Shown here: positions 1,368-16,079 of the stretch, one piece after another | Numbering within the stretch: position 1 is the stretch's first letter | How the letters are laid out: each line of letters starts with the position of its first letter | Source: a virus | Direction: 5' to 3' (one strand) | DNA: 27,178 nt | Virus record (IMG/VR): IMGVR_UViG_3300044695_006470 | Coordinates: 1 to 27,178 of that record | Position numbers and translations under genes: made by a program | The notes under the pieces: generated by a model | The model's database searches: none | What the model was told of the DNA's origin: nothing | What the model saw: only the letters and a program-made list of their open reading frames with translations

Positions 1368-2084
1368 ATGGTAAAGTTCGGTTTATTAAAATCAAAGATA
1401 GAAAAATTGATGTTAGAATCTTATTCTAACGGAACATTCAAGACTGAAATGAAAAATTTCAAAAAGAATGTATTGGAGAATAAAAACATTTCAAAACTTT
1501 TCTATCTGTATGATGAATTGAATTCTAATAAAGGTTTGAATGAATCTATTGTGGATGATTATATCTACGAATGTATAACGATATACGAAAATACAATCAA
1601 TAAGATTAAAAATTCAACTCTTGTTGATTTATCTAATTGGGTGGTTAATGTAAAGTCAGATAACAATTACTCAACTATCGACAATCTATTCTCTAATGAT
1701 GTTCTCACAATTGAATCTAGATTATCTAGCAAAAAATTAATTAAAGAGTCGTTAAAGAAAAAACCTGTAGATAAAAAAGAAGTTGTTAATTTACCATTAA
1801 GTACTATGGTAAATGTTGCTAATAAAACCATTTCTAATTTTATTGAAAGTTTGAATGAGTCTGAAAAGAAAGAATTAGTTGATTTTCTTAAGACTGACGA
1901 TAAAGAATTAGAGGGTAATTTTGAGCAATTAAAAGAAAGTGTCGCCAAAAAATTGGAGACAATTAAAGAGAACGCTGACACAGAAACTAAAAGCAGGATT
2001 AATGAAACTTTGGAAAAGGTTGTTTCAGAAAAATACGACAAATTTACTTATTTCAAATTAAAGAATCTTAACGAGAATCTTTAA
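1368..2084 (+). CDS. Unknown helical protein in prohead-core gene position
   Basis: The product is 238 aa, highly charged (Lys/Glu/Asn rich) and predicted almost entirely helical, with a Lys/Glu-rich C-terminal half that looks like coiled coil. No signal peptide or membrane segment is visible. It lies between the portal and the protease, where T4 has the small prohead core genes 67 and 68, so a prohead core or assembly role is plausible by position only. The N-terminus (MVKFGLLKSKIEKLMLES) is a short amphipathic helix ending in hydrophobic-x-Glu. This weakly resembles the tag seen on other proteins here, but the fit is poor. Its stop overlaps the end of the antisense bS21 gene by 4 nt. I do not recognise the family. 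Confidence 0.8.
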   Translation: MVKFGLLKSKIEKLMLESYSNGTFKTEMKNFKKNVLENKNISKLFYLYDELNSNKGLNESIVDDYIYECITIYENTINKIKNSTLVDLSNWVVNVKSDNNYSTIDNLFSNDVLTIESRLSSKKLIKESLKKKPVDKKEVVNLPLSTMVNVANKTISNFIESLNESEKKELVDFLKTDDKELEGNFEQLKESVAKKLETIKENADTETKSRINETLEKVVSEKYDKFTYFKLKNLNENL

Positions 2085-2833: not shown

Positions 2834-2845
2834 GTATTTATTATA
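2834..2845 (+). promoter_or_regulatory. TATTTAT-type candidate late promoter
   Basis: GTATTTATTATA lies in the 24-nt gap between the 153-aa gene and the protease gene. Its TATTTAT core ends 8 nt before the ATG at 2850. Confidence 0.5.
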
Positions 2846-2849
2846 AAAA

Positions 2850-3575
2850 ATGAATATGGAAGTTTTAAAACCAGGACAATCAGGAAAAGGTATTTTAATC
2901 GAATACGATGCAGGGTACCTATCCCCAACCGAAAAACGAAATTCAGATTTAATACAAGAGTCTAAAGGAATGTTAGACCACTCAAAACCATTTGAGTTCT
3001 ATGCCGTTTTACAAAAATACAATACCCCAAACAGAAACGGAAGAATATATCCTGAAAAAGTATTAAAGAGAGAATCCGAAAACTATAAGAAAATGATTAA
3101 CAAGGGTATTGCTTTATCCGAACTTAATCACCCTGAATCATCATTAGTTGACTTGGATAGAGTTTCTCACTCAATTAGCGATATATGGTGGGAAGGCCCT
3201 GTTCTTATGGGTAAATTAAAACTATTAACTTCACCAGGTTTTCACGAGAGAGGTATTGTATCAACCAAAGGAGACCAAGCGGCAAATCTTTTAAGACAAG
3301 GTGTTACACTTGGTATATCATCTCGTGGTGTAGGCTCACTAAAAAAAATTGGTGAACAAAACGAAGTACAAGATGATTTTGAATTGATTTGTTTTGACCT
3401 TGTATGGTCACCATCAACACCTGGTGCTTATCTTTTCACCGAACCTGATGACAGATTTAAGTTTGAAGAAAACTTGGATGAGGAGAAAAAAATGAAAGCC
3501 GAGAGAGAATTTGGTGGTCCAACTGACAAATCGCTTGACTTAATGAAGAAATTGAACGATTATTTGGGTTACTAA
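2850..3575 (+). CDS. gp21: Prohead core protease (T4 gp21-like)
   Basis: This is the serine protease that, inside the assembled prohead, cuts the scaffold, the capsid protein N-terminus and internal proteins after (L/I)xE. The 241-aa protein shows the family landmarks in order: NRNGRIYP (about residues 57-64), the histidine motif ELNHPE, the D-x-x-x-V-S-H segment after it, and the serine motif GISSRG. The C-terminal part ends in an acidic, helical region. T4 gp21 is 212 aa. It lies between portal and scaffold/capsid as in T4. The start MNMEV has a second Met two codons in and the choice between them is open. The presence of this enzyme makes the hydrophobic-x-Glu sites noted in neighbouring proteins meaningful. 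Confidence 0.93.
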   Translation: MNMEVLKPGQSGKGILIEYDAGYLSPTEKRNSDLIQESKGMLDHSKPFEFYAVLQKYNTPNRNGRIYPEKVLKRESENYKKMINKGIALSELNHPESSLVDLDRVSHSISDIWWEGPVLMGKLKLLTSPGFHERGIVSTKGDQAANLLRQGVTLGISSRGVGSLKKIGEQNEVQDDFELICFDLVWSPSTPGAYLFTEPDDRFKFEENLDEEKKMKAEREFGGPTDKSLDLMKKLNDYLGY

Positions 3576-3796: not shown

Positions 3797-3818
3797 TCAA
3801 AAAATTATCAATAGTTGT

Positions 3819-3846
3819 AAAAGGAGGGGAAACCCTCCTTTTTTTT
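3819..3846 (+). terminator. Rho-independent terminator after the protease unit
   Basis: A perfect 10-bp stem, AAAAGGAGGG (3819-3828) with CCCTCCTTTT (3833-3842), closes a GAAA tetraloop and runs into a T tract. The GGAGGG is the stem of a terminator, not a ribosome binding site. Confidence 0.92.
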
Positions 3847-3848
3847 AT

Positions 3849-3866
3849 TCTGATATATTTATCAGA
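3849..3866 (+). promoter_or_regulatory. TATTTAT motif inside a 7-bp inverted repeat
   Basis: TCTGATA (3849-3855) and TATCAGA (3860-3866) form a perfect inverted repeat around TATT, so that TATTTAT (3856-3862) spans its centre. Its end is 5 nt before the ATG at 3868, and a terminator lies just upstream. This gene therefore needs its own promoter. The palindrome could also serve as an operator or a start-site hairpin. Confidence 0.5.
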
Positions 3867-3867
3867 T

Positions 3868-4824
3868 ATGAAAATTACAATTTCAGAGGGTCAATACAAC
3901 ATATTATCAGAATATTTCAAAAGACCAACAGACCCTATTGCTGCTCATATTAGGAAAACATTGAAAGATGTTTATTCCCCATCTAATTGGGGTAAAATTG
4001 AAAACCCTGACGAGGGTTGTGCTACTGATTTTGGGGTGATTGGGGTTTATCAGCATATACCAGGTAAAGATGAATGGTCAATACTTAACAGATTTGACAC
4101 CAATACCAAAGTAAGAAGAAAAATGGAGGACTTGTTTCGTAAAGATGAACCTGACACCGAATTAACTCCTAAAAATTTCATGGAGTGGATTACACTAAAC
4201 GCCGAAAGATTATTTAAAGGTCCTATCACTGATGAATTGGTGGAATTAAATAAAACCACAATTGAGAGGGGAAATCAAAATGAAGATTACGCAATTCAAA
4301 TACTACAAGAATTTTTTGGTGAGAACGCCAAAATTGTAAGATTTTGTTCGGGTGATATTAGAGACACAAGAAAGGGAATGGATATTGCGGTAACTGTGGG
4401 CGGTAAAACATTTCACGTACAAGTAAAACCATTCACTTATATAAGAAGTTTGGTTGATAAAGATGGCGATACTTTTTTTGAAGTAACATCAAGGGGTTTT
4501 GACCCTACAAAATATTCTGAATCAAATGTACAAGTATTTTTATTCGTTGATTTGGATAGTAAAAGATATGTTGCGTTTGCCAATAAGAGAAATAAAATTA
4601 GAAAAGTAACAACTGAAATAACAAGATATGACGAACCATATCTTTTAAGTAATATAAATTTCGAAGGTCAGACCAAAGTTAAGTCATATAGAAACACTCC
4701 TGTTGAAGACGATATATTCAAAGTCGGAGAAAGAAGATTACAAAATCTAGAATTCAGAAAAGCGGAAATCGAAAAAATGATTGAGCTTGAAAAACAAAAG
4801 TTAGGAAAATCAGGAGAAAAATAA
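3868..4824 (+). CDS. PD-(D/E)xK nuclease-like protein with capsid-targeting-like N-terminus
   Basis: The C-terminal half of this 318-aa protein looks like a PD-(D/E)xK (restriction-endonuclease fold) domain: E139 in a helix (NEDYAIQILQEFFG), D172 in KGMDIAVTV, then Q185-V-K187 in TFHVQVKP. The D...QxK spacing of 13-15 residues is typical and all the acidic and Lys residues are present. The following VQVFLFVDLDSKRYVAF strand pair fits the core sheet. The first 15 residues (MKITISEGQYNILSE) match the N-terminal pattern of other proteins here: MK-x-I-x-[IL]-[TS]-E, then a short helix ending L-S-E. In T4 such a leader sends proteins into the prohead and is cut by gp21. It has its own promoter motif and lies between the protease and scaffold. 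Nuclease activity and packaging are inferences; a core or structural role cannot be excluded. Confidence 0.7.
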   Translation: MKITISEGQYNILSEYFKRPTDPIAAHIRKTLKDVYSPSNWGKIENPDEGCATDFGVIGVYQHIPGKDEWSILNRFDTNTKVRRKMEDLFRKDEPDTELTPKNFMEWITLNAERLFKGPITDELVELNKTTIERGNQNEDYAIQILQEFFGENAKIVRFCSGDIRDTRKGMDIAVTVGGKTFHVQVKPFTYIRSLVDKDGDTFFEVTSRGFDPTKYSESNVQVFLFVDLDSKRYVAFANKRNKIRKVTTEITRYDEPYLLSNINFEGQTKVKSYRNTPVEDDIFKVGERRLQNLEFRKAEIEKMIELEKQKLGKSGEK

Positions 4825-4837
4825 TAAAAAATATTTA

Positions 4838-4877
4838 GTATCAAAACGAATAATAAAAAATTTTTATGATTTGATAC
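4838..4877 (+). repeat. Inverted repeat GTATCAAA/TTTGATAC before the scaffold gene
   Basis: GTATCAAA (4838-4845) and TTTGATAC (4870-4877) are a perfect 8-bp inverted repeat 24 nt apart, directly followed by TATTTAT at 4879-4885. The spacer is A/T-rich and itself partly self-complementary. It could be a weak terminator or an operator. Confidence 0.45.
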
Positions 4878-4886
4878 ATATTTATA
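4878..4886 (+). promoter_or_regulatory. TATTTAT-type candidate late promoter
   Basis: ATATTTATA lies 20 nt before the ATG at 4907 of the scaffold gene, next to the inverted repeat. It probably serves the scaffold and capsid genes together. Confidence 0.5.
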
Positions 4887-4906
4887 TAGAAAAATAAAAA
4901 CAAAGA

Positions 4907-6412
4907 ATGGCAAAAGAAAAATCTATTGTTGAAGAAGCAATCCTCCAAATGAAAAATTTGGAAGAAGCGGTTGCGGAAAATGCAAAAGGAATACTTGCTT
5001 CGACTATGAAGGAAGAAATCAAAGAACTAGTAAAAGAATCTCTTAACGAGCAAGGCGAGGAAGAGGTTGACATGGAAGTGGACATGGAAGAACCCGAAAT
5101 GGAAGATGAGGACGAAATGGACTCAGACGAAATGGATATGGGTATGGAAATGGACACTGATAACATCGAAGATGACGAACCTATCGACTTAACTGACAAA
5201 TCAGATGAGGAGGTTTTACGTGTTTTCCAACTAATGGGTCCTGACGACCATATTGTTGTCACTAAAGATGACAGCGGTAATATTAGTGTGAAAGATACTG
5301 AGACTGACAAAGAATATATGATTGTTGGTGAAGGAGAAGAATCTGATTATACAACTATGGAAGAAAACATGGATGAAATGATGGATGATTCTATGATGGG
5401 TGACACAATGATGGAAGATGACGATGTCCTTCCTATGGAAGAAGAACTTGACGAAATGGATGAGTTTGAATCTGATGGAAACATTGAGGACATCGTTGCT
5501 AAAATTTTCGATGAAGGAAATGAAGAACAAGATGAAGATTACGTTTATGAAATCGACATGAATGAAGAATCTGACGATGATGACGATGATACTGATGAGG
5601 AATCTGAAGGTATTGTCTATGAAATCGAAATGGATGAAGAGATTGAAGAGGACATGGATGAATCATATGACCAAGAAAATGAAGGTTACTTGGAAGAAGG
5701 TAAAAAATCCGCCAAGGCCAAAGGCATGGGTATGGGTAAAGCCTCAAAATTCAAGTATCGTAAAAATCCGAATCAAGGCGAAGGGTTTAAAGTTGTTAAG
5801 AAAACCGCTAACAAAACTATGGGTACAGGAAGTGCTAAAAAAGGCTTCTCCTATGATAAGAACGGCGAAAATCTTGACGGCGAATTTAAAATTAAACCAA
5901 AAGGCGTTAAGAAGGCGGAAACAAAAGAAGCCGCACGTACATACGGAAATGGTTCTAAAGAAGGACGTGGTTTAAGAAAAGGAATCACACCTAATAGAAA
6001 CTTGAAGTTTGAAAGTGTGGATAGCAGTGAGTTACAACTTCTTCGTGAAAAGAATGAAGAATACAGAAAAGCGTTGAACGTATTCAGAAACAAATTAAAT
6101 GAAGTTGCCGTGTTTAATTCAAATTTAGCATACGCAACTCGTTTATTTACTGAACACTCAACATCTAAACAAGAGAAAATTAACATCTTGAGAAGATTTG
6201 ATTCTGTTGAAACATTGAAAGAATCGAAGAATTTGTACAAATCAATCAAAGATGAGTTGTCAGGAAGTTCTGCTCAACCAATGAATGAGTCAATCGGTCA
6301 AGTAATCGAAAAGGCTCCGTCGACAGGTTCAGCAATCAACTTAATTGAGTCAAAAACATATGAAAACCCTCAATTCCTGAGAATGAAAGATTTGATGAAT
6401 AAAATAAAATAA
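4907..6412 (+). CDS. Prohead scaffold / core protein (gp22 position), very acidic
   Basis: The scaffold shapes the prohead and is then degraded by the gp21-type protease. The 501-aa product lies immediately before the capsid gene, as gp22 does in T4. Residues 1-50 form an amphipathic helix region containing IKELVKESLNEQ (I38-Q49), with an L-N-E site like the tags on other proteins in the window. Residues 50-260 are extremely acidic (long Asp/Glu/Met runs). About 265-370 are Lys/Gly-rich and basic. The last 130 residues are a Leu/Lys/Glu coiled coil ending QFLRMKDLMNKIK. The acidic middle with a helical C-terminus is typical of prohead core proteins, but it is more than 200 residues longer than T4 gp22, mostly through the acidic block. 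The acidic block could hold basic cargo electrostatically (inference). Sequence identity to gp22 is not evident. Confidence 0.75.
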   Translation: MAKEKSIVEEAILQMKNLEEAVAENAKGILASTMKEEIKELVKESLNEQGEEEVDMEVDMEEPEMEDEDEMDSDEMDMGMEMDTDNIEDDEPIDLTDKSDEEVLRVFQLMGPDDHIVVTKDDSGNISVKDTETDKEYMIVGEGEESDYTTMEENMDEMMDDSMMGDTMMEDDDVLPMEEELDEMDEFESDGNIEDIVAKIFDEGNEEQDEDYVYEIDMNEESDDDDDDTDEESEGIVYEIEMDEEIEEDMDESYDQENEGYLEEGKKSAKAKGMGMGKASKFKYRKNPNQGEGFKVVKKTANKTMGTGSAKKGFSYDKNGENLDGEFKIKPKGVKKAETKEAARTYGNGSKEGRGLRKGITPNRNLKFESVDSSELQLLREKNEEYRKALNVFRNKLNEVAVFNSNLAYATRLFTEHSTSKQEKINILRRFDSVETLKESKNLYKSIKDELSGSSAQPMNESIGQVIEKAPSTGSAINLIESKTYENPQFLRMKDLMNKIK

Positions 6413-6440
6413 ACTTAAAATTTAATAAAAAACCAAAAAA

Positions 6441-8288
6441 ATGGGAGCATTATTAGAATCAGGTCTTGTTGGTAACATTGGTCTTAAGCACCTTAAAGTT
6501 ATCAAGGAAGATACTATTAACAAATGGGACAAATTAGGGTTCCTTGAAGGTCTTAAAGGCCACCTAAAAGAAAATGTTGCGCAGTTATATGAAAACCAAG
6601 CATCACATTTGATTAACGAAGCAACTTCTGACGGTTCTTCAGGTTCTTTTGAAACTGTTGTATTCCCAATCGTTAGACGTGTATTCTCTAAGTTACTTGC
6701 TAATGACATTGTGTCTGTACAAGCTATGAACTTACCAATTGGTAAATTGTTCTACTTCGTACCAAAGATTCAAGGTTATAACGGAGCTGATGCTGCTACT
6801 ACAACAGGACCATTTAACGCTAATTCAGGTCAACACTACGCACCTGTAGGTTCTCCTGGTAACTATCCTGGTGACCCTAACTCAGGTTACACTACAGGTA
6901 ATGGAGGTTATAATGGTACTTATGCTAAAAACCTTTACGATTTATTCTATGAAGGTACTGAACCGGGTCTTGACCCAGCAGGTCTTTTTGATTATTCAAA
7001 AGGTCGTTGGTCGGCTATCACATCTACCGCAACTGTTGTTTCTTGGCAAAATGGTGCGTTATCTACTTTTACAGGAACTTCAGGAAACGTTAGAAAAGTC
7101 ATCATTGCACTTTCTGGTTTCCAAAATGCTGGCGTTGGTAAACTTATCGCACCTGATGGTAATGAAATTGACACAGAATCATTCTTGTCAAGTTTGATTG
7201 TTTACACAGGTTCAGGTTTAGCAGTTGCTGCCGGAAGTCCATGTACAGTATCTACAGGACCACTTTTATATCGTGTTGTAACTCAAAAATATGGTCAAGG
7301 TATTGTAGGACCAACTTCAACTTCAACTCCAACTACTTGGCCGTCAAATGGTGGAGGTACTTATGATAATATCTGCAGTCAAACTGGTATTATCTATTTA
7401 GAAGTTGACCTTTCTTGTCCTACTTGTCCAACTTGTGGTAGTGATACTTTGGACGGTTACACAGGAACAACAATCACTTCAGCGGCTACAACAACTTCAT
7501 TTAGTTGTGCTTGGAGACGTTACGAAGAATTAGAATTTGAAGACAAGATTGGTGAAGTTTCTTTCGACCTTGAATCAGTAACAGTTTCTGTAACTGAAAG
7601 AAAGTTGAGAGCACAATGGTCACCAGAACTTGCTCAAGACGTTGCGGCATTCCACAACATTGACGCTGAGGCTGAATTGACAGCATTGTTATCAGAACAA
7701 GTTGCAGCAGAAATTGACCGTGAAATTCTTCGCGACCTTCGTAAAGGAGCTGCTTGGAATTTACGTTGGGATTACAACGGATGGAGAAGAGTTGCTAATA
7801 CAACTTCCTACACTCAAAAAGACTGGAACCAAACTTTGATTACTGCAATCAACCAATTATCTGCTCAAATTCACAAGTCAACACTTCGTGGTGGAGCAAA
7901 CTGGATTGTTGTTTCTTCTGAAGTTTCAGCTATCTTTGATGACTTGGAATATTTCCACGTTTCAAATGCGTCACCTGAACAAGACCAATACAACATGGGT
8001 ATTGAGAGAGTGGGTACACTTGCTGGTCGTTACCAAGTATATCGTGACCCATACTTCCCATCAAACCAAGTATTGATTGGTCACAAAGGTACATCGTTAC
8101 TTGACACTGGTTACATTTACGCACCGTATGTACCACTTCAATTAACTCCAACTATGTACAACCCATTCAACTTTACACCTATCAAGGGTATCATGACACG
8201 TTACGCGAAGAAAATGGTTAATAACCGTTTCTACGGACGTATCACAGTTGATGGTGTACGTACATTTGACTTACAAGAACTTAGATAA
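6441..8288 (+). CDS. gp23: Major capsid protein (T4 gp23-like)
   Basis: This is the hexamer-forming shell protein. The 615-aa product has the gp23 landmarks: an N-terminal propeptide, then FPIVRRVFSKLLANDIVSVQAM, a G-x-x-F-Y-F-V strand, and the C-terminal HK97-fold part (DLESVTVSVTERKLRAQWS, DLEYFHVS, YQVYRDPYFPSNQVLIGHKG). The propeptide probably ends at L-I-N-E60, followed by ATSDGSSG, matching the (L/I)xE cleavage rule and the T4 gp23 cut after residue 65. Residues about 112-350 are a Gly/Ser/Thr-rich insertion absent at this length from T4 gp23 (521 aa); it holds CPTCPTCG (Cys 326, 329, 332). It follows the scaffold gene by 28 nt and is closed by a terminator. No Shine-Dalgarno precedes the ATG, only an A-rich leader. 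Confidence 0.95.
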   Translation: MGALLESGLVGNIGLKHLKVIKEDTINKWDKLGFLEGLKGHLKENVAQLYENQASHLINEATSDGSSGSFETVVFPIVRRVFSKLLANDIVSVQAMNLPIGKLFYFVPKIQGYNGADAATTTGPFNANSGQHYAPVGSPGNYPGDPNSGYTTGNGGYNGTYAKNLYDLFYEGTEPGLDPAGLFDYSKGRWSAITSTATVVSWQNGALSTFTGTSGNVRKVIIALSGFQNAGVGKLIAPDGNEIDTESFLSSLIVYTGSGLAVAAGSPCTVSTGPLLYRVVTQKYGQGIVGPTSTSTPTTWPSNGGGTYDNICSQTGIIYLEVDLSCPTCPTCGSDTLDGYTGTTITSAATTTSFSCAWRRYEELEFEDKIGEVSFDLESVTVSVTERKLRAQWSPELAQDVAAFHNIDAEAELTALLSEQVAAEIDREILRDLRKGAAWNLRWDYNGWRRVANTTSYTQKDWNQTLITAINQLSAQIHKSTLRGGANWIVVSSEVSAIFDDLEYFHVSNASPEQDQYNMGIERVGTLAGRYQVYRDPYFPSNQVLIGHKGTSLLDTGYIYAPYVPLQLTPTMYNPFNFTPIKGIMTRYAKKMVNNRFYGRITVDGVRTFDLQELR

Positions 8289-8290
8289 TC

Positions 8291-8348
8291 TTATCTATAG
8301 TATAATTAAAAAGGGACGAGAAATCGTCCCTTTTTTATTTATAGATAA
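8291..8348 (+). terminator. Terminator after the capsid gene, with extra outer stem
   Basis: The core stem AAAAAGGGACGA (8308-8319) with TCGTCCCTTTTT (8324-8335) has a GAAA loop and a T tract. Around it TTATCTATA (8291-8299) and TATAGATAA (8340-8348) form a second, perfect 9-bp stem. The core is a standard terminator; the outer stem could protect the 3' end of the abundant capsid mRNA or act in both directions. Confidence 0.9.
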
Positions 8349-8362
8349 ATTGTAAAAAACGT

Positions 8363-8393
8363 CACACAACAAATTTATTTTACAAATTGTGTG
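8363..8393. repeat. Inverted repeat CACACAA/TTGTGTG upstream of the outer-membrane gene
   Basis: CACACAA (8363-8369) and TTGTGTG (8387-8393) are a perfect 7-bp inverted repeat with an AT-rich 17-nt spacer. It lies between the capsid terminator and the TATTTAT motif of the next gene. It may be an operator; no family is recognised. Confidence 0.4.
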
Positions 8394-8402
8394 GATTAGA
8401 CT

Positions 8403-8412
8403 ATATTTATCA
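8403..8412 (+). promoter_or_regulatory. TATTTAT-type candidate late promoter
   Basis: ATATTTATCA lies 29 nt before the ATG at 8442, the longest spacing of the set, downstream of a terminator. The following leader is A/T-only in effect and has no Shine-Dalgarno. Confidence 0.5.
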
Positions 8413-8441
8413 TTATTATAATAAATTTTAAAAAACAAATA

Positions 8442-9236
8442 ATGAAAAAACAAATCTTATTTTTAACCTTAATGATTATGTCGTTATTTACAATGGCCCA
8501 AACTTCAGTTCCTGTAGATACGACAAAAACCGGTGGTTTATTCTACAAACCAGCTAAAAAACAAAGTCCATTTACAAGTGAATTTGGTATTGCCACATCT
8601 AATCTTTGGAGAGGTGTTGATGTAGGTAAGCAACCCGTAATAAAAATGATTGCGGATTATCAACCTGTAGATTGGTTTACACTGACTTCGGAGGCGAATG
8701 TAGTGTATAATCAATTTAAAGATGGTTATGGAAACACAGTAAAGAATCAAGCAATGTTCAATATCTATAACACTTCTTTAGGCGTTCAGGACATTTACTT
8801 TACTCAAAACACTTTTTTACAGAGTGATACAAATTATTTCCATTATAATAAAAAAACAACTTCTCACTTTTTAGAAGCTGCTGTCAGATATAAAGGTGAT
8901 GCCAAAAGTAGAATTGACTTTTTGGCAACTTATGTGTTCTACCAAAACGAAGCTTACAAAAAAGGTGCCGCATATTTTGAGGCGACATACCATTTGGATT
9001 ATAATGCGGACCTATTCGTAGGATACGTAACAGGAGAATCTCAAGTTAATTTTCAACAAAAGGCAGGTTTCACTAATGTCGGTGTTGTTATTAAAAGAAC
9101 ATTACAATTTTCTAAAACAACTGATGCGAATACAAGACTTACAATTATGGTAAATCCTATGTATAAAACGGCAATTGTACCAAACTCAACGGTTGCTAAT
9201 AGACCTATAACGGCTAATTTACAGATACTATTTTAA
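8442..9236 (+). CDS. Exported outer-membrane beta-barrel protein, TorF-like
   Basis: The 264-aa product begins with a clear Sec signal peptide (MKKQILFLTLMIMSLFTMA, cleavage before Q20), the M-A-Q end being typical of Bacteroidota. The mature part is made of alternating polar/hydrophobic strands with aromatic girdles, and ends ...NLQILF with a terminal Phe, the usual outer-membrane barrel insertion signal. The segment FGIATSNLWRGVDVGKQPV, followed by a D-Y-x-P strand, resembles the start of TorF-like putative porins (pattern YVSRG-x-x-x, then x-x-K/P-A/V-x-Q). It is not a known T4 virion type, and sits alone between two terminators after the capsid gene. Such a protein could alter the host envelope, for example by masking a receptor (inference), or be a captured host porin. 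Membrane topology is well supported, function is not. Confidence 0.8.
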   Translation: MKKQILFLTLMIMSLFTMAQTSVPVDTTKTGGLFYKPAKKQSPFTSEFGIATSNLWRGVDVGKQPVIKMIADYQPVDWFTLTSEANVVYNQFKDGYGNTVKNQAMFNIYNTSLGVQDIYFTQNTFLQSDTNYFHYNKKTTSHFLEAAVRYKGDAKSRIDFLATYVFYQNEAYKKGAAYFEATYHLDYNADLFVGYVTGESQVNFQQKAGFTNVGVVIKRTLQFSKTTDANTRLTIMVNPMYKTAIVPNSTVANRPITANLQILF

Positions 9237-9257
9237 TCTGATATGAGATTTTTGATT

Positions 9258-9287
9258 AAAGGAGGGTATAACCCTCCTTTTTTTTTT
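9258..9287 (+). terminator. Rho-independent terminator after the outer-membrane gene
   Basis: A 10-bp perfect stem AAAGGAGGGT (9258-9267) with ACCCTCCTTT (9271-9280), loop ATA, runs into a long T tract. Confidence 0.92.
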
Positions 9288-9339
9288 AGACAAAAATATA
9301 TAATTATTCGACATAAAATTATATAGAAACCGAATATGA

Positions 9340-9360
9340 ATATTTATTAAGATATTTATA
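9340..9360 (+). promoter_or_regulatory. Two tandem TATTTAT motifs
   Basis: ATATTTATTAA (9340-9350) is followed directly by GATATTTATA (9351-9360), 11-12 nt apart and about one helical turn. The second ends 18 nt before the ATG at 9379. This is the only doubled copy I saw. Confidence 0.5.
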
Positions 9361-9378
9361 TATGAATTGTTTTTTTAT

Positions 9379-9960
9379 ATGAGGTTTATTTTATTTTCGA
9401 TTTTATTATTTTTACAAATTAGTGTTTTTTCACAGTTAAGAGATTCGGTCTATGTTCAGACCGCAATTTTTAATATTGTTTATTCTGAAAAATTACAGCA
9501 ACCTAAATGGGTTGAATATACCGTCCTCTGCCACGATGGTAAAATATCTAGAAAAGGATTAGATTTTTATCCTGTAAAGGGAATATCGACTTCAACAAAT
9601 GAAGATTATGAAAATAATATCTATGATAAGGGCCATCTAGCTCCAGCCGCCGATTTCAACTGTAATCAAGATTATCTAAAACAAACATTTTCTTACTTGA
9701 ATTGTGTTCTACAACACGAAAGATTAAATAGGGGGGTTTGGAGATTACTAGAATCTCGTGAGAGAGAACTCTCAAAACAATATAAAGTATCTGTTGAAAT
9801 AAGAATGAATTATAGTAAAAATTCAAAAGTCTTACCAACAGGGGCTACAGTTCCCGATTCTTTTACTAAAACAATTATGTATAATAATAAAAAAGAAAAA
9901 TATTTCTTCAAAAATGAAGAACCGAAATCATCTGACCCTAATTTATATAGGGTTAATTGA
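9379..9960 (+). CDS. Exported DNA/RNA non-specific endonuclease (beta-beta-alpha-metal)
   Basis: This belongs to the Serratia nuclease/NucA family, which cuts DNA and RNA with one metal ion. I chose ATG 9379 (193 aa) over an in-frame TTG at 9367, because the signal peptide MRFILFSILLFLQISVFSQ then starts normally. The active site reads YDKGHLAPAADF: the usual DRGH is DKGH here, with catalytic H86. It is followed by LNRGVWRLLE, giving the metal ligand N117 and E125. The H-to-N distance (31) and N-to-E distance (8) agree with Serratia nuclease (30 and 8). The protein should act in the periplasm or outside. It lies 33 nt before the protease gene in the same unit. Possible roles are nucleotide scavenging, clearing extracellular DNA, or excluding other phages (inference). 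The Arg-to-Lys change may lower activity. Confidence 0.88.
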   Translation: MRFILFSILLFLQISVFSQLRDSVYVQTAIFNIVYSEKLQQPKWVEYTVLCHDGKISRKGLDFYPVKGISTSTNEDYENNIYDKGHLAPAADFNCNQDYLKQTFSYLNCVLQHERLNRGVWRLLESRERELSKQYKVSVEIRMNYSKNSKVLPTGATVPDSFTKTIMYNNKKEKYFFKNEEPKSSDPNLYRVN

Positions 9961-9993
9961 TGTTTAATAAACAAATAAAATAAAATTAAAAAA

Positions 9994-12318
9994 ATGAAAA
10001 AAGTAATCTTATCATTACTGTTTGTTTTCTCATTTATTTTCGGATATAGTCAATACGACTTATCCAAAAATATTGACAGACAAATTATTGTGGTTCCGAA
10101 AAAAGGAATGGAACTACAAGCGAAGAATCACTTTAACCAAGGTGATACAAAAGTTGTTGTCGAGTTCGACCAACTTGGATGGTATGTTGTCCTAATTCCG
10201 AATGGTGAAACCCAAGACGAATTTATTAATCGAAACAAAAGTTTAAGTTTCGTTCAAAATCTTTACAAAGACGAAGTAAGACAAATGCAATTGGATTACA
10301 TTCCAAATGATGCTGAATTTAATCAGTGTTGGCATTTAAGACAAACTTCAGATGCTGATATAGATGCTGATGAGGCTTGGGATTTAGTACCCGCCAATAA
10401 TCCATTTGTAAGTGTTGCGATGTTTGATGGAGGATTAGATTTAACCATTCCTGATTTAGTAGGAAATACTAATAGTCCATTCAATGCCGTTAATAGTACA
10501 ACATCTATTCCTTATGTTAATGCTGAAGATAAACACGGAACAACTTGTTCTGGTACAATTGCCGCGGTAACAAACAATGGAATTGGTGTTAGTAGTGTTG
10601 GTAACAACAAAGTTAAAGTTATGCCGGTGAATATTATGTCACAAGTTTATGCGGGAGGAAGTTTTGGAACCTCGGACGTAATTCAGATTAATGGTGTAAA
10701 TGCGGCAATGGCTAATCCGACCTGTGTCGCAATTGCGATGTCATATGGTGGTTCATCATATTCGGCGGCACTTGAAGCGGCTTTTAACGCGGCTAGAACC
10801 ACCGCAAGAGGTGGAAAAGGTATGGTTGTGGTTGCATCATCGGGAAATGGGTTTTCAGGAACCGCAAATCAATATCCCGCACAATACAGTGCTGTATGGG
10901 GAATTGGAGCTACATCACAATCAGATGTTAGAGCAAGTTTTTCTAACTTCGGTCAAATTTGTGATATATCGGCGCCCGGCGTTGGTATTAGAACTACTGA
11001 TAGATTGGGTACTGCGGGATATAGTACAGGTGACTATACTTCAATAAACGGTACTTCATTCTCTTGTCCTATTACTGCGGCAGCGGCTGCTTTTGTGTTC
11101 TACAAGAATTGGGAATTAACCGATGACCAAGTTTTACAAATACTTGCTCAAACGGCTCAAAAAGTTGGCGGTTATACTTATTCAAATGTTAGTGGATGGC
11201 CCTTATCAACAAGAAGTAATGAACTTGGTTATGGTAGAATTAACTTGAGGGACGCAATTATTGCAACACCAAATCCAGGTGGTGTAACTCCACCTCCACC
11301 TCCTCCGACACTCATTCATAACTTTGTAATTAATACTTTAACTGTAAGTCCTGCGGCGGTTACAGTAGGTTCTAATATTACAATTACTGCAAATGTCGCG
11401 ACACAAAATCCCACATACCCATCGGTTAATGTAATGACTCAACATAGATTATCAACCAACACAACTTGGGGTGACTCTGACGATATTGTTATAGGAACAA
11501 CAAGTGGTAATCTTGGTGGTGGAGTTGCAACTGACGTTGAGACAATAACTTATAATGTTGGTAACATTACAGGACTCAGATATATTATAAGTAGAGTTAA
11601 TTATATGGGTACTATATCTGAAACTAATACAAATGATAATACAAGACAAACAAGTTTCAATGTTACTCAACCTGTTGTATCAGGTGGTGACTTATCCGTT
11701 GCTCTGACTATCCCGTCAACACCAACGGCAACAATTTCATCAACACAATCTCAAATTACGTTCCAATGGAAAGTTACAAATACAGGTACAGTTCCAATTA
11801 CATCATTTACTTGGGACAGAATGTGGGTGAATATTCCTGAAGCACCTAGAACTTGGCCTACACCCGCAAATGGAAGTTTTCCAGGGTCTTGGCAAGGTCC
11901 ATTACTTCCAGGTCAATTCATTTATTTACCGGGTGGAGGATTACCTACAAACCGATTAGGTGTGTCTTATTTATCGGCATCGGTATGTTTTAGTACAAAC
12001 AGTTGTGCTCTACCACTTGGCTCAACAAACACTTTCAGAGTAAGAATTCTAACCGTAAATGGTGGTGCGGGCGATGAAAACCCCGCAAATAACCAAGTTG
12101 AATGTACTGTAACAAGACTTGCGACTGCGGTTAACAATGAAGAGGTTATTGACGCACCTGAAGTTAAATTTGTTGAAGTTAGACAGTTTAGTAATTTATA
12201 TGAAAAACCAATTAGGTACGGTAGTATTGATGAAGCAATACTTGAAAAGGGGCTTAATGTAATTCACATTCATTACTCTGATGGAACGGTAGAAATTAAA
12301 AAGATTTCTGTGAACTAA
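9994..12318 (+). CDS. Exported subtilisin-like serine protease (S8) with C-terminal beta domains
   Basis: The 774-aa protein has a Sec signal peptide (MKKVILSLLFVFSFIFGYS), a propeptide of about 100 residues, and an S8 peptidase domain (about 110-425). The catalytic triad is complete: D145 (VAMFDGGLD), H181 (DKHGTTCSGT) and S355 (NGTSFSCP), with oxyanion Asn285 (SSGN). A short Pro run (about 430-437) leads to a CARDB-like beta-sandwich region (about 440-555) and a second beta domain (about 565-710). The last 45 residues end LNVIHIHYSDGTVEIKKISV, which resembles the end of a type IX secretion sorting domain, although the usual start of such a domain is not clear. It shares a transcript with the exported nuclease. 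Substrate is unknown; cell-surface protein or matrix degradation is plausible. Domain calls beyond S8 are tentative. Confidence 0.92.
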   Translation: MKKVILSLLFVFSFIFGYSQYDLSKNIDRQIIVVPKKGMELQAKNHFNQGDTKVVVEFDQLGWYVVLIPNGETQDEFINRNKSLSFVQNLYKDEVRQMQLDYIPNDAEFNQCWHLRQTSDADIDADEAWDLVPANNPFVSVAMFDGGLDLTIPDLVGNTNSPFNAVNSTTSIPYVNAEDKHGTTCSGTIAAVTNNGIGVSSVGNNKVKVMPVNIMSQVYAGGSFGTSDVIQINGVNAAMANPTCVAIAMSYGGSSYSAALEAAFNAARTTARGGKGMVVVASSGNGFSGTANQYPAQYSAVWGIGATSQSDVRASFSNFGQICDISAPGVGIRTTDRLGTAGYSTGDYTSINGTSFSCPITAAAAAFVFYKNWELTDDQVLQILAQTAQKVGGYTYSNVSGWPLSTRSNELGYGRINLRDAIIATPNPGGVTPPPPPPTLIHNFVINTLTVSPAAVTVGSNITITANVATQNPTYPSVNVMTQHRLSTNTTWGDSDDIVIGTTSGNLGGGVATDVETITYNVGNITGLRYIISRVNYMGTISETNTNDNTRQTSFNVTQPVVSGGDLSVALTIPSTPTATISSTQSQITFQWKVTNTGTVPITSFTWDRMWVNIPEAPRTWPTPANGSFPGSWQGPLLPGQFIYLPGGGLPTNRLGVSYLSASVCFSTNSCALPLGSTNTFRVRILTVNGGAGDENPANNQVECTVTRLATAVNNEEVIDAPEVKFVEVRQFSNLYEKPIRYGSIDEAILEKGLNVIHIHYSDGTVEIKKISVN

Positions 12319-12338
12319 AATATTAATTTGAATATGTT

Positions 12339-12365
12339 AAAAGGAGACTTAGGTCTCCTTTTTTT
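12339..12365 (+). terminator. Rho-independent terminator after the protease gene
   Basis: The stem AAAAGGAGAC (12339-12348) with GTCTCCTTTT (12353-12362), loop TTAG, runs into a T tract. Confidence 0.92.
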
Positions 12366-12373
12366 GTTTAACG

Positions 12374-12388
12374 GATATTTATTATAAA
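12374..12388 (+). promoter_or_regulatory. TATTTAT-type candidate late promoter
   Basis: GATATTTATTATAAA directly follows the terminator. It touches the ATG at 12389 and lies 9 nt before the ATG at 12398. If it is a promoter, the downstream ATG is the more likely start. Confidence 0.5.
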
Positions 12389-12397
12389 ATGTTTAAT

Positions 12398-12940
12398 ATG
12401 AAGAAAGTTAAATTATTAACCGAAGACGATAGAAATGAAATCTTGAATTTATATTCACAAAAAAATATAGTATTAGAGCAAGCCACCACTCAACAAAACT
12501 ATACACTACAAGATATTCAAAATATTTTAAATAGACCCCCATTTAACTCAAAATTAAACGCCGATAATAAGTTTGGTCCATTAACCGCCGGAGCAATAGT
12601 TAAGGCGTTAGATATGGTTAAATCAGGTCAGGCAGGTGTAACCCCTCAAACCATTGCGTCAAAAGATGCGACAACAGTACAATCAACAACCCAAACTGAC
12701 AAAGGATTAGCTCAAAGTACCCCAACTCTACAAACAGGACCCCCATCTCCATCCACTAATACCCAACAAGCTACGACCGCTCAACAACCAGCACAGGCAA
12801 CGACTCAAACCACCTCTCAACAATCGGCTCAAACCACAACACAACAACCAGCACAGGCAACAACCCAAACCACAACACAGCAACCACAAGCAACCGCTCA
12901 ATCGACAGGAAAAGGAGATGATTCAACGGCTATTGAGTAA
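12398..12940 (+). CDS. Thr/Gln-rich protein with tag-like N-terminus and possible peptidoglycan-binding domain
   Basis: I chose ATG 12398 (MKKVKLLTEDD) because it matches the N-termini of related-looking proteins; ATG 12389 in the same frame is possible. Residues 1-28 follow the shared pattern: MKK-[IV]-K-L-x-E, a short helix, then V-L-E27. Residues about 34-75 (YTLQDIQNILNR...DNKFGPLTAGAIVKALD) look like a small peptidoglycan-binding (PF01471-type) repeat with the D-x-x-F-G-P-x-T core. From about 85 onward it is disordered Thr/Gln/Ala/Pro sequence with a 20-residue repeat. The layout suggests a packaged or virion protein with a cell-wall-binding module, but both points are inference. Its end overlaps the antisense 82-aa gene by 11 nt. 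Confidence 0.7.
   Translation: MKKVKLLTEDDRNEILNLYSQKNIVLEQATTQQNYTLQDIQNILNRPPFNSKLNADNKFGPLTAGAIVKALDMVKSGQAGVTPQTIASKDATTVQSTTQTDKGLAQSTPTLQTGPPSPSTNTQQATTAQQPAQATTQTTSQQSAQTTTQQPAQATTQTTTQQPQATAQSTGKGDDSTAIE
12781..12900 (+). repeat. Degenerate 60-bp tandem repeat in the Thr/Gln-rich coding tail
   Basis: Two units of exactly 60 nt (12781-12840 and 12841-12900) share a nearly identical first 32 nt; for example CAACAACCAGCACAGGCAAC is at 12782 and 12842. They diverge afterwards. They encode the repeated peptide QQPAQATTQT. The reading frame is kept because the period is 20 codons. Confidence 0.8.
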
Positions 12941-13178
12941 TCTCATTGTTGTCCTCAATATCTTGAGGCTTTGCGGTAATTCTAATCGCTTTAGATATAA
13001 TTTCACTTTCACCTAAAGAGAACGCACCTCTGTGATAAGCGGATTTACAGGCCAATGTTATAAAATATAATGCGTCTTGACTAGACATAGAAGAAAGTAT
13101 AACTTCTAAATGGTCTTCACTAATAATCGGAACTTCGTCAAAAATTTTACCGTATAATTCGTCTGTTTGATTTTCCAT
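12930..13178 (-). CDS. Unknown small acidic helical protein, 82 aa
   Basis: The product is soluble and helical, acidic at the N-terminus (MENQTDELYGKIFDEVP), with a central hydrophobic helix (QDALYFITLACKSAYHRGAF) that looks like a folded core and not a membrane segment. It ends in an acidic tail. I accept it as real because nothing is coded on the other strand over 12941-13217, its composition is protein-like, and TATAAATATC lies just upstream on its strand. It is the only minus-strand gene between two plus-strand genes and converges with the preceding one by 11 nt. Family not recognised. Confidence 0.7.
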   Translation of the reverse strand: MENQTDELYGKIFDEVPIISEDHLEVILSSMSSQDALYFITLACKSAYHRGAFSLGESEIISKAIRITAKPQDIEDNNEITQ

Positions 13179-13185
13179 AATGTTT

Positions 13186-13195
13186 GATATTTATA
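13186..13195 (+). promoter_or_regulatory. TATTTAT motif in a divergent intergenic region
   Basis: GATATTTATA on the plus strand lies 22 nt before the ATG at 13218. Read on the minus strand it is TATAAATATC, 7 nt before the ATG of the 82-aa gene (13178), and contains the exact T4 late word TATAAATA. Either gene or both could be served. Confidence 0.45.
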
Positions 13196-13217
13196 ATAAT
13201 AGACAATAAATTTCATA

Positions 13218-13949
13218 ATGTTAAGTGAGATAATAAAAAAAGTTTTAAGGGAGGCAACTTCAGATTCAGGAGGAGCGGGGGCATATGTTGCGGCACTCCA
13301 ACCTGGATTACGAAAATTTGATAAGACACAATTACAACCATTTAATCAACCTGTATCTGAATACGATAGCCCTTTATTACAATATGATAGTTATGATGGT
13401 GAAATTAGTATGAGATTAAACCAAATAAAAAAAATAGAAAAACAGGCTAAAAAAATTACAGATAAGATGAATAAAAAACCTTATTTAACTACTAGTGACG
13501 AGGATGGTAACAGTATAAATCAAACACCAGGAAAAGGTCTTAATGTTGTGCCTATTAAAGAATGGGTTGAAATAAATGAGGAAACAGTTTCAGAGGATTT
13601 AGCGGTTTGGTTTGGCACTAAAAAGAAACCTAAAGGAAGTAGTCAACCAAAAGGTCCTTGGGTTAATATATGTAGAAAAAAAGAAGGAGGTGGTCATCCC
13701 CCATGTGGAAGACCTGAAGCCGATTCAAAAGGATATCCAAAATGTAGAGCGGCGGGTGTTGCTTCTAAAATGTCTGATTCACAAAAAAGAGCGGCGTGTG
13801 CCCAAAAAAGAAGGGCGGAAAAAAGCGACCCAAAAGTAGGTACCGGTAATTCTCCTACTATGACTTCGTACAAACCAAAAAAAAAGACTCAAAATGAGTC
13901 TTTAGAAAGATTGGTTAAGAAGATAATTAAAGAGATTGTTCAGGACTAA
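13218..13949 (+). CDS. Basic Cys-containing putative internal head protein, tags at both ends
   Basis: The 243-aa protein starts MLSEIIKKVLRE, then ATSDSGG. L10-R-E12 followed by ATSD matches the predicted capsid-protein cleavage site (I-N-E, then ATSDGSS). The C-terminus carries a second copy of the helix (ESLERLVKKIIKEIVQD, E239). Residues about 135-205 contain a motif I know only as a recurring element in uncharacterised phage proteins: W-F-G-T-K-K-K, PKGPWVNICRK, HPPCGRPEA, YPKCRAAGVASKM, then RAACAQKRRAEK. It has four cysteines that could bind zinc, and many Lys/Arg. A basic, tag-bearing protein in a phage with a gp21-type protease recalls the T4 internal proteins packed with DNA; that role is inferred. 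Its last 23 nt overlap the end of the antisense gene at 13927. Confidence 0.78.
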   Translation: MLSEIIKKVLREATSDSGGAGAYVAALQPGLRKFDKTQLQPFNQPVSEYDSPLLQYDSYDGEISMRLNQIKKIEKQAKKITDKMNKKPYLTTSDEDGNSINQTPGKGLNVVPIKEWVEINEETVSEDLAVWFGTKKKPKGSSQPKGPWVNICRKKEGGGHPPCGRPEADSKGYPKCRAAGVASKMSDSQKRAACAQKRRAEKSDPKVGTGNSPTMTSYKPKKKTQNESLERLVKKIIKEIVQD

Positions 13950-14370
13950 TCACTTCATTATTATCAATTTTATTCAGAATAGAGGATAATGAATACTCAA
14001 TTTGTGATGTAATTTCAGTCTCATAAGTCTGTCTTTCACGTTCTGTTCTATTATCATACATACGTGATAATCTTTCCCACGATTTAAAATTGAGTACTAC
14101 ATCGTAGTGATATACGTGATTTGTCACACTAATCTTTCCCCCATCCAAGATAACAAACAATCCAAGTTCGGAATTCTTAATATACCTTTTACCTGAAATA
14201 GGAGCAATAAGAAATTTAGAATTAGGGTGATTAATCAACTTTCTACAGATTGTACTACAAATCCGTACATTATCATCCACAGGTTCGGATTTATAATTAG
14301 ATTTTTTTGCCAGCCAAATTGCTGATTTTACATAGAGTTTTTTGAGCCAACGATTAACAATTTTTTTCAT
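13927..14370 (-). CDS. Unknown protein with basic N-terminal helix, 147 aa
   Basis: A longer open frame reaches 14499, but the upstream 43 codons overlap the preceding gene. I chose ATG 14370 because the product then starts MKKIVNRWLKKLYVK and a TACTTTTG element lies 21 nt upstream. The first 26 residues form a basic amphipathic helix that could touch membrane. After that comes a compact alpha/beta part (KFLIAPISGKRYIKNSELGL, then FVILDGGKISVTN) and a helical acidic C-terminus. A segment with two cysteines (ICSTICRK) lies near residue 40. It ends the minus-strand unit that includes the two membrane proteins. Family not recognised. Confidence 0.72.
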   Translation of the reverse strand: MKKIVNRWLKKLYVKSAIWLAKKSNYKSEPVDDNVRICSTICRKLINHPNSKFLIAPISGKRYIKNSELGLFVILDGGKISVTNHVYHYDVVLNFKSWERLSRMYDNRTERERQTYETEITSQIEYSLSSILNKIDNNEVISPEQSL

Positions 14371-14390
14371 GAATTTTAGATTTATTACTA

Positions 14391-14398
14391 CAAAAGTA
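14391..14398 (-). promoter_or_regulatory. Bacteroidota-type -7 element before the 147-aa gene
   Basis: On the minus strand this reads TACTTTTG, matching TAnnTTTG, 20 nt before the ATG at 14370 in a 55-nt gap. This gene has no TATTTAT motif, so it may be read by host polymerase and expressed early. No clear -33 box. Confidence 0.4.
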
Positions 14399-14425
14399 CA
14401 AATAAAACCAATATCTACAAAAAAA

Positions 14426-14914
14426 TTATTTCTTTTTTTTCGTGAATATGATGGCAGATTCGGTGACCGCCAAAACCGCAATTGCGGGTAACCAAGCACC
14501 AGTTACACCTCCTAATAATATACCAACCGCGGCAACACTAACACATAATGTGTTTTTTTTCCATTTCCTTATTGATTCTGTTTGAGTTATAGAAGTAACT
14601 TCATTTCTTAATTGTGATACTTCTAATGTATCTATAAGTTGAAAATATCTTCGTGATAGAAGATTATAGTCGTAGTCGGCTTGAGACAATTGGTCTGTAA
14701 GTTTATCGTTATATTTATTTAAAGAATCATTCTCCGTCGAACATTTTTCTAATCTTGATAACTTTTCTAATAATTTGACTTCTTGTTTTTTTGTGAAAAA
14801 TATACCCGAATCACCTTTAAGGATTATCCTTTTTGGTAGTTCCTTTTGTCCATAGGCTATCACGCTTTGAATCAGTATAAAATTCAGTACAATCAATTTC
14901 TTTAATAACTTCAT
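14426..14914 (-). CDS. Exported coiled-coil protein with C-terminal membrane segment, possible lysis protein
   Basis: The 162-aa product has a signal sequence (MKLLKKLIVLNFILIQSVIAYG, no lipobox Cys), then a short strand motif (RIILKGDSGIFFTKKQ) that I associate with small membrane proteins of flavobacterial phages. Next come about 70 residues of coiled coil and a hydrophobic C-terminal region (TLCVSVAAVGILLGGVTGAW, continuing to IIFTKKKK) that can span the membrane once or twice. Its first 98 nt overlap, out of frame, the end of the upstream membrane-protein gene. This overlap and topology recall spanin gene pairs, but the outer-membrane lipoprotein signal is missing, so a holin-like or spanin-like role is only a suggestion. 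Confidence 0.72.
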   Translation of the reverse strand: MKLLKKLIVLNFILIQSVIAYGQKELPKRIILKGDSGIFFTKKQEVKLLEKLSRLEKCSTENDSLNKYNDKLTDQLSQADYDYNLLSRRYFQLIDTLEVSQLRNEVTSITQTESIRKWKKNTLCVSVAAVGILLGGVTGAWLPAIAVLAVTESAIIFTKKKK

Positions 14915-15179
14915 CTCTTTTAATTACTATTGTTTCTTTTGGTTTCGAAGGTACTTTTACAAAAACCGTATCTGTTACAATTTCTTTATTATCATCTAAT
15001 AATAGTAATTTTTTTTCGTAATTCAATAGCTCTATACTATCGTTAAGACTAACAATAGTTTTCTTAAACTTTTCAGTTTCTTTTGGATAAACATTATAAA
15101 CTTTTTTAGGTACGGTTATTACATATAATAACAGACCTAGTATCACAGAATAATACCAGTATTTTTTTAAAAACTGCAT
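14817..15179 (-). CDS. Inner-membrane protein with periplasmic coiled coil, i-spanin-like
   Basis: The 120-aa product has one N-terminal membrane segment (WYYSVILGLLLYVITVP) after a short basic cytoplasmic end, so the rest should be periplasmic. That part holds a coiled coil (KFKKTIVSLNDSIELLNYEKKLLLL), a strand with Pro-Ser-Lys-Pro, and a polar tail. Size and topology agree with an Rz-type inner-membrane spanin subunit. The downstream gene starts 98 nt before its end in another frame, an arrangement common in spanin pairs. It lies 12 nt after the tagged basic protein gene. No endolysin gene is in the window to confirm a lysis cassette. Confidence 0.7.
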   Translation of the reverse strand: MQFLKKYWYYSVILGLLLYVITVPKKVYNVYPKETEKFKKTIVSLNDSIELLNYEKKLLLLDDNKEIVTDTVFVKVPSKPKETIVIKRDEVIKEIDCTEFYTDSKRDSLWTKGTTKKDNP

Positions 15180-15191
15180 GATTGTTATAAA

Positions 15192-15668
15192 TTAACAATA
15201 AGGTGGAGAACATTTTTTCTTCCCGTCTAACCCTTTCATTCTACCCTGACATACTTGAACCGCGAAGCCATTTCCATAAGCCGAGGGGTAGACTTTAAAT
15301 TTTGCTTTTGCGGCCGCTTTACCTCTAGCACAAAGTTTTGTACCTGCTTTTTTACGACCTTCCATCATAACCATTTCTTCTTCATCTGATTGGTCATTTA
15401 AATCACCTTCATCGGTAGTTTCATTCATTAAAAAATCAAACACTTGGTCCATATTATTTTTTGCTTCGGCAATATGGTCTTGTGCCCAATCGTGACCGTT
15501 ATCTAAAATAGAATCAATCTCGTCTCTATTTTTACTTAACAATAAGTCACATTGTCTTCTCATTTGTTCTAAATTTGAGAAGAACATGTATCTATCTGAA
15601 CGTTGTTCCTCTAATACTTTTTTAACTATATTAGTTAATTCTGATTCTGTCAATTTAATTTTTTTCAT
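15192..15668 (-). CDS. Tagged, basic Cys-rich putative internal head protein
   Basis: The 158-aa protein begins MKKIKLTESELTNIVKKVLEEQ: the shared leader MKK-[IV]-K-L-T-E, an amphipathic helix, then V-L-E20 or L-E-E21 as a possible protease site. The middle (about 25-110) is an acidic helical spacer. The C-terminal 50 residues are basic with four cysteines: GRKKAGTKLCARGKAAAKAK, then KVYPSAYGNGFAVQVCQGR and KKKCSPPYC. The YPSAY element recurs in uncharacterised phage proteins as far as I recall. The combination matches the 13218 protein in plan (tag plus basic Cys domain) though not in sequence. Packaging into the head is inferred. It follows the 127-aa virion-like gene by 4 nt, so the two are probably co-transcribed. 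Confidence 0.76.
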   Translation of the reverse strand: MKKIKLTESELTNIVKKVLEEQRSDRYMFFSNLEQMRRQCDLLLSKNRDEIDSILDNGHDWAQDHIAEAKNNMDQVFDFLMNETTDEGDLNDQSDEEEMVMMEGRKKAGTKLCARGKAAAKAKFKVYPSAYGNGFAVQVCQGRMKGLDGKKKCSPPYC

Positions 15669-15672
15669 AGTA

Positions 15673-16069: not shown

Positions 16070-16079
16070 TATAAATATC
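16070..16079 (-). promoter_or_regulatory. TATTTAT-type candidate late promoter
   Basis: On the minus strand GATATTTATA, 13 nt before the ATG at 16056, in the 30-nt gap between two structural genes. Confidence 0.5.

Follow-up and report, generated by a model that had tools for sequence, protein, structure and literature searches.

The window analysed here is a stretch of 27,178 bases, the viral record IMGVR_UViG_3300044695_006470, which is probably a genome fragment. Inside it lies a T4-like head gene cluster. Several window genes encode proteins that begin with a short leader closing in hydrophobic-x-Glu, and one such leader, here called the type A tag, recurs on otherwise unrelated proteins of related large records. 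This tag is the subject of the present report. Genes are named by their start position in the window, and a slash within a sequence marks the boundary after the closing residue of a motif or leader.

Leaders and head genes of the window

The core pattern [LI]xx[IL][IV]K[KE]x[LI]xE occurs exactly four times among the 32 window proteins: at residues 38-48 of a scaffold-like protein, 2-12 and 229-239 of the 13218 protein, and 11-21 of the 15668 protein. These are the sites named in an earlier sequence-only reading; all residues cited there are correct, and no fifth site exists. Shuffled window proteins gave a mean of 0.012 sites and a maximum of 1 (500 shuffles). The same reading described MK-x-[IL]-x-E leaders on the 3868, 12398 and 15668 proteins. 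They are present as described, but they are three leader types and not one tag. A profile of the type A tag scored 42.4 bits on 15668, 11.2 and 7.5 bits on the N- and C-terminus of 13218, 2.7 bits on 12398, -1.0 bits on the scaffold copy and -3.1 bits on 3868. By profile, the type A tag is carried by 15668 and weakly by 13218; 3868 and 12398 belong to other leader types.

The type A tag of 15668, MKKIKLTESELTNIVKKVLEE, is encoded at 15606..15668 on the minus strand, with a predicted cut after E21 (or E22). Residues E8 and E21 are invariant across 35 aligned sequences. In an AlphaFold2 model (mean predicted local distance difference test score, pLDDT, 72; tag blocks 66-75) a helix spans residues 8-21, ending at E21, and a helical domain starts at residue 27. 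Together with the alignment, the model divides the protein (15192..15668, minus strand) into the tag, a helical domain at 27-84, a disordered linker and a C-terminal Cys/YPSAY domain (phrog_27331). A structure search with the model found no match in the PDB. Between the helical and the Cys domain lies a nearly invariant E103-G104 (M-x-E/G), a possible second protease site.

The 13218 protein carries tag-like sequence at both ends. At the N-terminus, MLSEIIKKVLRE (13218..13253, plus strand) is followed by ATSDSGG; the C-terminal copy, LERLVKKIIKE, is encoded at 13902..13934 on the same strand. Across the family the leader is variable, yet 72 of the 87 distinct members have a hydrophobic-x-Glu-Ala junction among their first 80 residues. 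The C-terminal helix core was found in 36 of 62 anchored members, 27 of which have Glu at the site; a stricter pattern was found in 24/87. In four relatives (L143:3932-5623, L067:15103-16734, L051:7854-9464 and L054:5834-7060) the C-terminal tag of this family is followed in frame by about 160-190 residues, which makes it a possible polyprotein joint.

The two remaining leaders are of other kinds. The short type B leader of 3868, MKITISEGQYNILSE (3868..3912, plus strand), precedes a PD-(D/E)XK-like nuclease (3868..4824, plus strand) encoded between the protease and scaffold genes. This assignment comes from Foldseek, with I-Ssp6803I as best match (1.1e-4), followed by SPARDA subunits and Hjc resolvases; TM-scores were low and the model has a mean pLDDT of 62. 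The longer type C leader of 12398, MKKVKLLTEDDRNEILNLYSQKNIVLE (12398..12478, plus strand), has a Thr/Gln-rich tail downstream.

The head genes are arranged in the order portal, core protein, protease, DUF4494, 3868, scaffold, capsid; the corresponding order in T4 is 20-67-68-21-22-23. The portal protein matches Portal_T4 in Pfam (1.3e-67). A gp21-type prohead protease (2850..3575, plus strand), which the sequence-only reading had reported, matches Peptidase_S77 in Pfam (1.3e-24) and phrog_207 (4.9e-43). The gp23-type major capsid protein (6441..8288, plus strand; Pfam 9.5e-75) contains the maturation site LINE/A at residues 57-60 (6609..6620, plus strand). Of 131 capsid homologues, 123 extend to this site, and all of these have NQAS-x-LINE/A at residues 46-85; the ORF (open reading frame) calls of the remaining 8 begin downstream. 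The protein at the gp67/68 position (1368..2084, plus strand) has MLE/S near its N-terminus and LNE/NL at its C-terminus. Among its homologues longer than 180 residues, [LIVM]xES was found in 56/67 and a C-terminal [LI]xE in 42/67.

The scaffold-like protein (4907..6412, plus strand) gave no match in the Pfam and PHROG searches and is assigned because of its acidic composition and its position between the protease and capsid genes, which is that of T4 gp22. Its copy of the core, IKELVKESLNE/Q, is encoded at 5018..5050 on the plus strand. Across the 98 anchored homologues, out of 122, the segment E-I-x-x-L-V-K-E-S varies little or not at all.

Between the capsid gene and the tagged genes, window 8442-12318 encodes three proteins with signal-like N-termini, which by inference are Bacteroidota-like; one of the three is a DNA/RNA nuclease (phrog_14168, 4e-20). 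The host of a tag-bearing phage probably belongs to the Bacteroidota. At 25924-26109 a 61-residue ORF opens with sequence that appears to resemble a GDP-mannose dehydratase and then breaks off; it looks like a gene remnant.

Recurrence, tagged proteins and upstream motif of the type A tag

The census of the tag started from 175 loci, one of them in the window itself, in which a regular expression gave 55 distinct seed tags. Of the 126 matches that the resulting profile made at E <=0.1 among 2073 distinct ORFs, 106 were N-terminal. When an alignment of 25 tags was searched against 16 large records, 13 had matches at E <=0.1, the highest count for a single record being 15. Twelve large IMG/VR records were searched, and seven were examined whole: G001 (a close relative of the window), G003, G004, G007, G008, G009 and G011; G002, G005, G006, G010 and G012 were not taken whole. 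The seven whole records comprise 1.8 Mb and 2238 ORFs, called by a simple greedy script with uncurated start sites.

In the seven records 77 hits of the tag profile reached at least 12 bits; 75 are N-terminal, one is C-terminal and one lies elsewhere. Shuffled proteins gave 0.0 hits and shuffled N-termini 0.1. Chance is rejected as the origin of the tag by these shuffles (75 vs 0.1) and by those of the core (4 vs 0.012). The part after the tag divides the 76 tagged proteins into 64 families, split by BLAST at 1e-3, a threshold that leaves distant kinship among the cargo possible; the records hold 14, 12, 12, 11, 9, 9 and 9 tagged proteins. A profile search of related phages had been proposed with the sequence-only reading, and its outcome, an N-terminal tag on many unrelated proteins, agrees with it. 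The observation is larger than first noted, extending to dozens of otherwise unrelated proteins in large uncultured relatives of T4. The tag is broader than the exact core, of which the same records have 14 N-terminal, 2 C-terminal and 7 internal occurrences. Leaders of the broader M-K..[IL]xE kind are also enriched at N-termini (223/2238 ORFs vs 140/8419 internal Met). A tblastn search with a 24-residue tag against 50,697 phage records gave no match, the query being too short to be informative. No description of the tag was found in literature titles and abstract openings, a search of open-access sources that leaves an earlier description possible.

Since the seed expression required the final Glu, the tag was redefined by its first half alone, which excludes a circular definition of that residue. 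In the 165 distinct sequences so selected, Glu occupies position +13, counted from the first Glu, in 73% of cases and Asp in 3%. Because 42 of the 165 belong to one family, the count was repeated with one sequence per family (94 families): +13 is Glu in 66/93 and Asp in 3, which excludes over-weighting of one family as the source of the signal. On this count Ile or Leu occupies +11 in 67/94, the tag ends in [LIVMF]xE in 60/94, and no residue after +13 exceeds 22/93. According to the available part of PMC9026906, the T4 protease cuts after L/I-x-E, and Asp in place of the Glu at the cut site permits targeting and inhibits processing. In the T4 sequences themselves, gp23 has LTE/A at 65, and IPII and IPIII have FIAE/A at 10.

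The tagged proteins are short, with a median of 142.5 residues vs 173 for all ORFs, and their genes cluster: 44 lie within five genes of another tagged gene, compared with a mean of 21.7 and a maximum of 36 in 1000 permutations. A homologue in another of the seven records was found for 25/76 tagged proteins vs 202/300 untagged ORFs of 90-200 residues. By this comparison of sequences the tagged cargo is hypervariable. Recognised cargo domains are few, namely PG_binding_1 with Tlde1/YkuD, and PG_binding_1.

Enriched 7-mers upstream of the tagged genes yielded the motif TATTTAT, most commonly about 21-25 bases before the start. Within 90 bases upstream it precedes 59/76 tagged genes, 34/40 homologues of late head and tail genes, 7/12 early-type genes and 560/2075 others, a class that will contain unrecognised late genes. 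When only operon heads are counted the figures are 35/36, 18/18, 1/5 and 304/730 (tagged vs other, Fisher 3e-12). Mononucleotide shuffles of the tagged upstream regions gave 7.9 occurrences instead of 59. The longer form TATTTATA precedes 38/76 tagged, 18/40 late and 0/12 early-type genes. As the motif was derived from tagged genes and then tried on head genes, the comparison with late genes is the independent part of this evidence. TATTTAT is a candidate late promoter.

In the window, TATTTAT lies before the p67-like gene and, on the plus strand, before the protease gene (2835..2841), 3868 (3856..3862), the scaffold gene (4879..4885), 12398 (12376..12382) and 13218 (13188..13194). On the minus strand the putative promoter at 16071..16077 precedes the 16056 gene, the immediate upstream neighbour of 15668 on this strand. 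The motif does not immediately precede the PhoH or glycosyltransferase genes. Over window 1349-17574 it stands 12-38 bases before ten genes, mostly virion or tagged ones. A weak late-sigma match (phrog_234, E 0.024) was found at 21652-22401.

Other leader types and other huge phages

The seven records also hold leaders of types B (short), C and D (e.g. MKKVISEELNYIKYLFDYKKGVVISE/Q), many of them ending in [IL]xE; among 58 B/C heads, Glu is at residue 15 in 22. After removal of type A, the E/D ratio of [LI]xE is 1.55 at N-termini vs 1.04 internally. A broad N-terminal enrichment of [LI]xE was rejected as a general signal, being small once normalised for Glu frequency (1.33 vs 1.19).

In LR756508, 26 of 574 ORFs in 400 kb begin with M..[KR][LF][KRQ]x[LIV]; P3 is Leu in 23/26, and P1 is Glu in 21/26 and Asp in none. 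Over 177696-337887 of LR756508.1, a 484 kb uncultured phage (loci L300-L308), the tag reads M[KR][LF]KxLLxE and stands on about 26-29 of the 574 ORFs. Thirty tagged proteins of this phage include one of Tpt1/KptA type (6e-5) and one of zeta-toxin/AAA_33 type (8e-9, 3e-9). A repeated tagged family with LYRGT and RKDRxPRD is possibly ADP-ribosyltransferase-like.

In LR756502, 66 of 594 ORFs in the first 400 kb begin with M[KRN][HYNFK][LIF][KRS]x[YF] vs 2/1994 internal Met, and 43 ORFs in 38 families fit a less strict pattern that closes in [NDE]E. N-termini like MKHLKRYNE/S stand on many ORFs of LR756502.1, a 642 kb uncultured phage (loci L315-L334 and L176). The leader on its homologue of the 15668 domain, MENIKSFDSFNE, is related to these. 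A clean swap of tags on this domain is a weakened proposal, in that the shared domain is also preceded by a helix-like segment whose last residues are M-K-E. In Flavobacterium phage immuto (NC_055915.1, loci L274-L281) the N-termini MEN(T)FDLKKFLVEN (three times) and MKKQILSEQFxRMQxLAGIITE (twice) are repeated on different proteins. These are possibly the head tags of that phage, an isolate with a cultured host.

Proposed head loading, its alternatives and known systems

The type A tag is probably a capsid-targeting propeptide that loads its bearers into the head and is then cleaved off, after which the cargo may be injected. Under this proposal the tagged proteins and the head proteins would be made at the same time, late in infection. 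With its lysine-rich start and the amphipathic helix that follows, the tag would dock the cargo on the scaffold core as the prohead forms. The gp21-type protease would cut after the closing Glu of the hydrophobic-x-Glu end of the tag, as is expected for the capsid protein. This cut would free the cargo inside the head and clear the core for DNA. When the next cell is infected, the cargo present in the virion would exit along with the DNA, and it may then counter host defences or act on the cell wall.

The sequence-only reading had proposed a capsid-targeting tag on unrelated cargo. That proposal has good, if indirect, support in the 64 families among 76 proteins, the hydrophobic-x-Glu end, the S77 protease, the capsid site and the promoter motif; it loses 3868 and 12398, which do not score with the tag profile and carry other leader types. 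Head loading is also favoured by the hypervariability of the cargo, the clustering of tagged genes, the enzyme-type domains and the recurrence of the scheme, with different tags, in two other huge phages. The sequence-only reading had also suggested that the scaffold copy may be the docking model. There the core pattern is present and the helix core is conserved, but docking can be suggested only tentatively because the copy scores below zero with the profile and the closing Glu is present in just 66/98 homologues.

Further points weigh against head loading and injection. One tagged protein resembles tape-measure segments, which are not obvious head cargo, and most of the cargo is without a recognised domain. 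The P1' residues of the tag (Q, E, D, G and S) differ from the Ala of the capsid site, 13 of the 58 type B/C heads are without hydrophobic-x-Glu by residue 45, and the short TATTTAT also precedes early-type genes. Tags are no more alike within a genome than between genomes (0.5745 vs 0.570; 129/500 permutations as large), which gives no sign of a receptor fit specific to each lineage, and lineage-specific co-evolution of the tag was not found. Microcystis phage Mel-JY01, which has a related capsid protein, gave no tag A match and showed no N-terminal enrichment of [LI]xE.

Three other explanations have to be considered beside head loading. The tag could be an assembly helix only, its bearers being minor core or structural head proteins that co-assemble in the prohead and are not injected, with cutting serving to clear the core. 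The core pattern shared with the scaffold speaks for this, as do the C-terminal copies of the 13218 family that lack the Glu (9/36), from which it also follows that docking and cutting may separate. The explanation is nevertheless unlikely, as hypervariability, the scarcity of homologues across records and enzyme-type domains are unlike structural parts. It is more doubtful still that the N-terminus directs proteins elsewhere, to a compartment, membrane or tail, and that the terminal Glu reflects helix chemistry with no cut site. Such a reading gains from the fact that head targeting is itself inferred, and from leaders without a cut motif. Against it stand the strong excess of Glu over Asp at one position in the count by family, the repetition of this pattern at P3 and P1 in LR756508, the presence of such a motif in the capsid protein, and the hydrophobic-x-Glu-Ala that the 13218 family keeps before its body.

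A third account treats the shared N-termini as a recombination or expression leader, in which promoter and start region are copied together and conserved as DNA. The upstream motif common to the tagged genes would fit, and a few tag pairs are more than 90% identical as DNA, so some tags have been copied. Identical residues use the same codon in 60% of cases within and 56% between records vs 48% expected. Codon choice is only modestly shared, and it is the peptide that is conserved; tags are also found at C-termini and inside fused frames. A leader acting at the DNA level has little support and is very improbable.

If the tag is a head-loading label, as preferred here, sequence alone would pick out injected proteins, 9-14 of type A per record in each of the seven records, plus those with other leaders. 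Few of the proteins that large phages inject alongside their DNA are known, since these are small, orphan and lack recognised domains. Candidates for anti-defence and host take-over functions could then be listed at once, with predicted mature N-termini, and the tag peptide could serve to load foreign proteins into such heads. Foreign proteins have been loaded into heads with the T4 capsid-targeting sequence (CTS), according to the available part of PMC9026906. With even chances of being right, the tags may represent a general delivery platform of giant T4-like phages, in which each lineage has its own set of tags ending in hydrophobic-x-Glu. Such tags would move between genes, stand at either end or as a polyprotein joint, and deliver tens of fast-changing effectors per virion, of nuclease, cell-wall, ADP-ribosyl and kinase type.

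The propeptides cut by the prohead protease of SPN3US offer one comparison. In the available part of PMC10052503, they are removed proteolytically from head and ejected proteins and are mostly long (111-254 residues, with two of 20 and 24), whereas the tag described here ends about 20 residues from the start; that part of the source describes no single tag on many unrelated proteins. The uncultured huge phages LR756508 and LR756502, from INPHARED, carry on many ORFs short N-terminal tags of their own, which end in L-x-Glu or, in many cases, [FY]-N-Glu. These tag sequences differ from type A, the alignment of which gave 5 weak matches in LR756508 and none in LR756502.

The closest parallel is the CTS of the T4 internal proteins IPI, IPII and IPIII, along with the propeptides of Alt, all cut by gp21. 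The CTS is likewise a short N-terminal propeptide ending in L/I-x-E, in a phage with an S77 protease and a similar order of head genes. According to the available parts of PMC3012670 and PMC9026906, the T4 internal proteins are diverse defence proteins, one of which blocks a restriction enzyme, and they are poorly conserved beyond the leader, the CTS alone being conserved; the tagged cargo is likewise variable. Alt is processed at both ends (PMC9026906, in part), which may be compared with the two-ended 13218 family. No sequence similarity of the tag to the T4 CTS (MKTYQEFIAE) was detected, the profile giving at best 7.7 bits (E 0.12) on three T4 pieces including ipI, ipII and ipIII. The type A tag is about 20 residues long and stands on 9-14 proteins per record, whereas T4 has three internal proteins and Alt; unlike T4, the records here also have several leader types and C-terminal and internal copies of the tag. 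On the best reading of these sequences, the tag system would work like the T4 CTS; by sequence it is not a member of that system, having another tag, and it is unusually rich in cargo.

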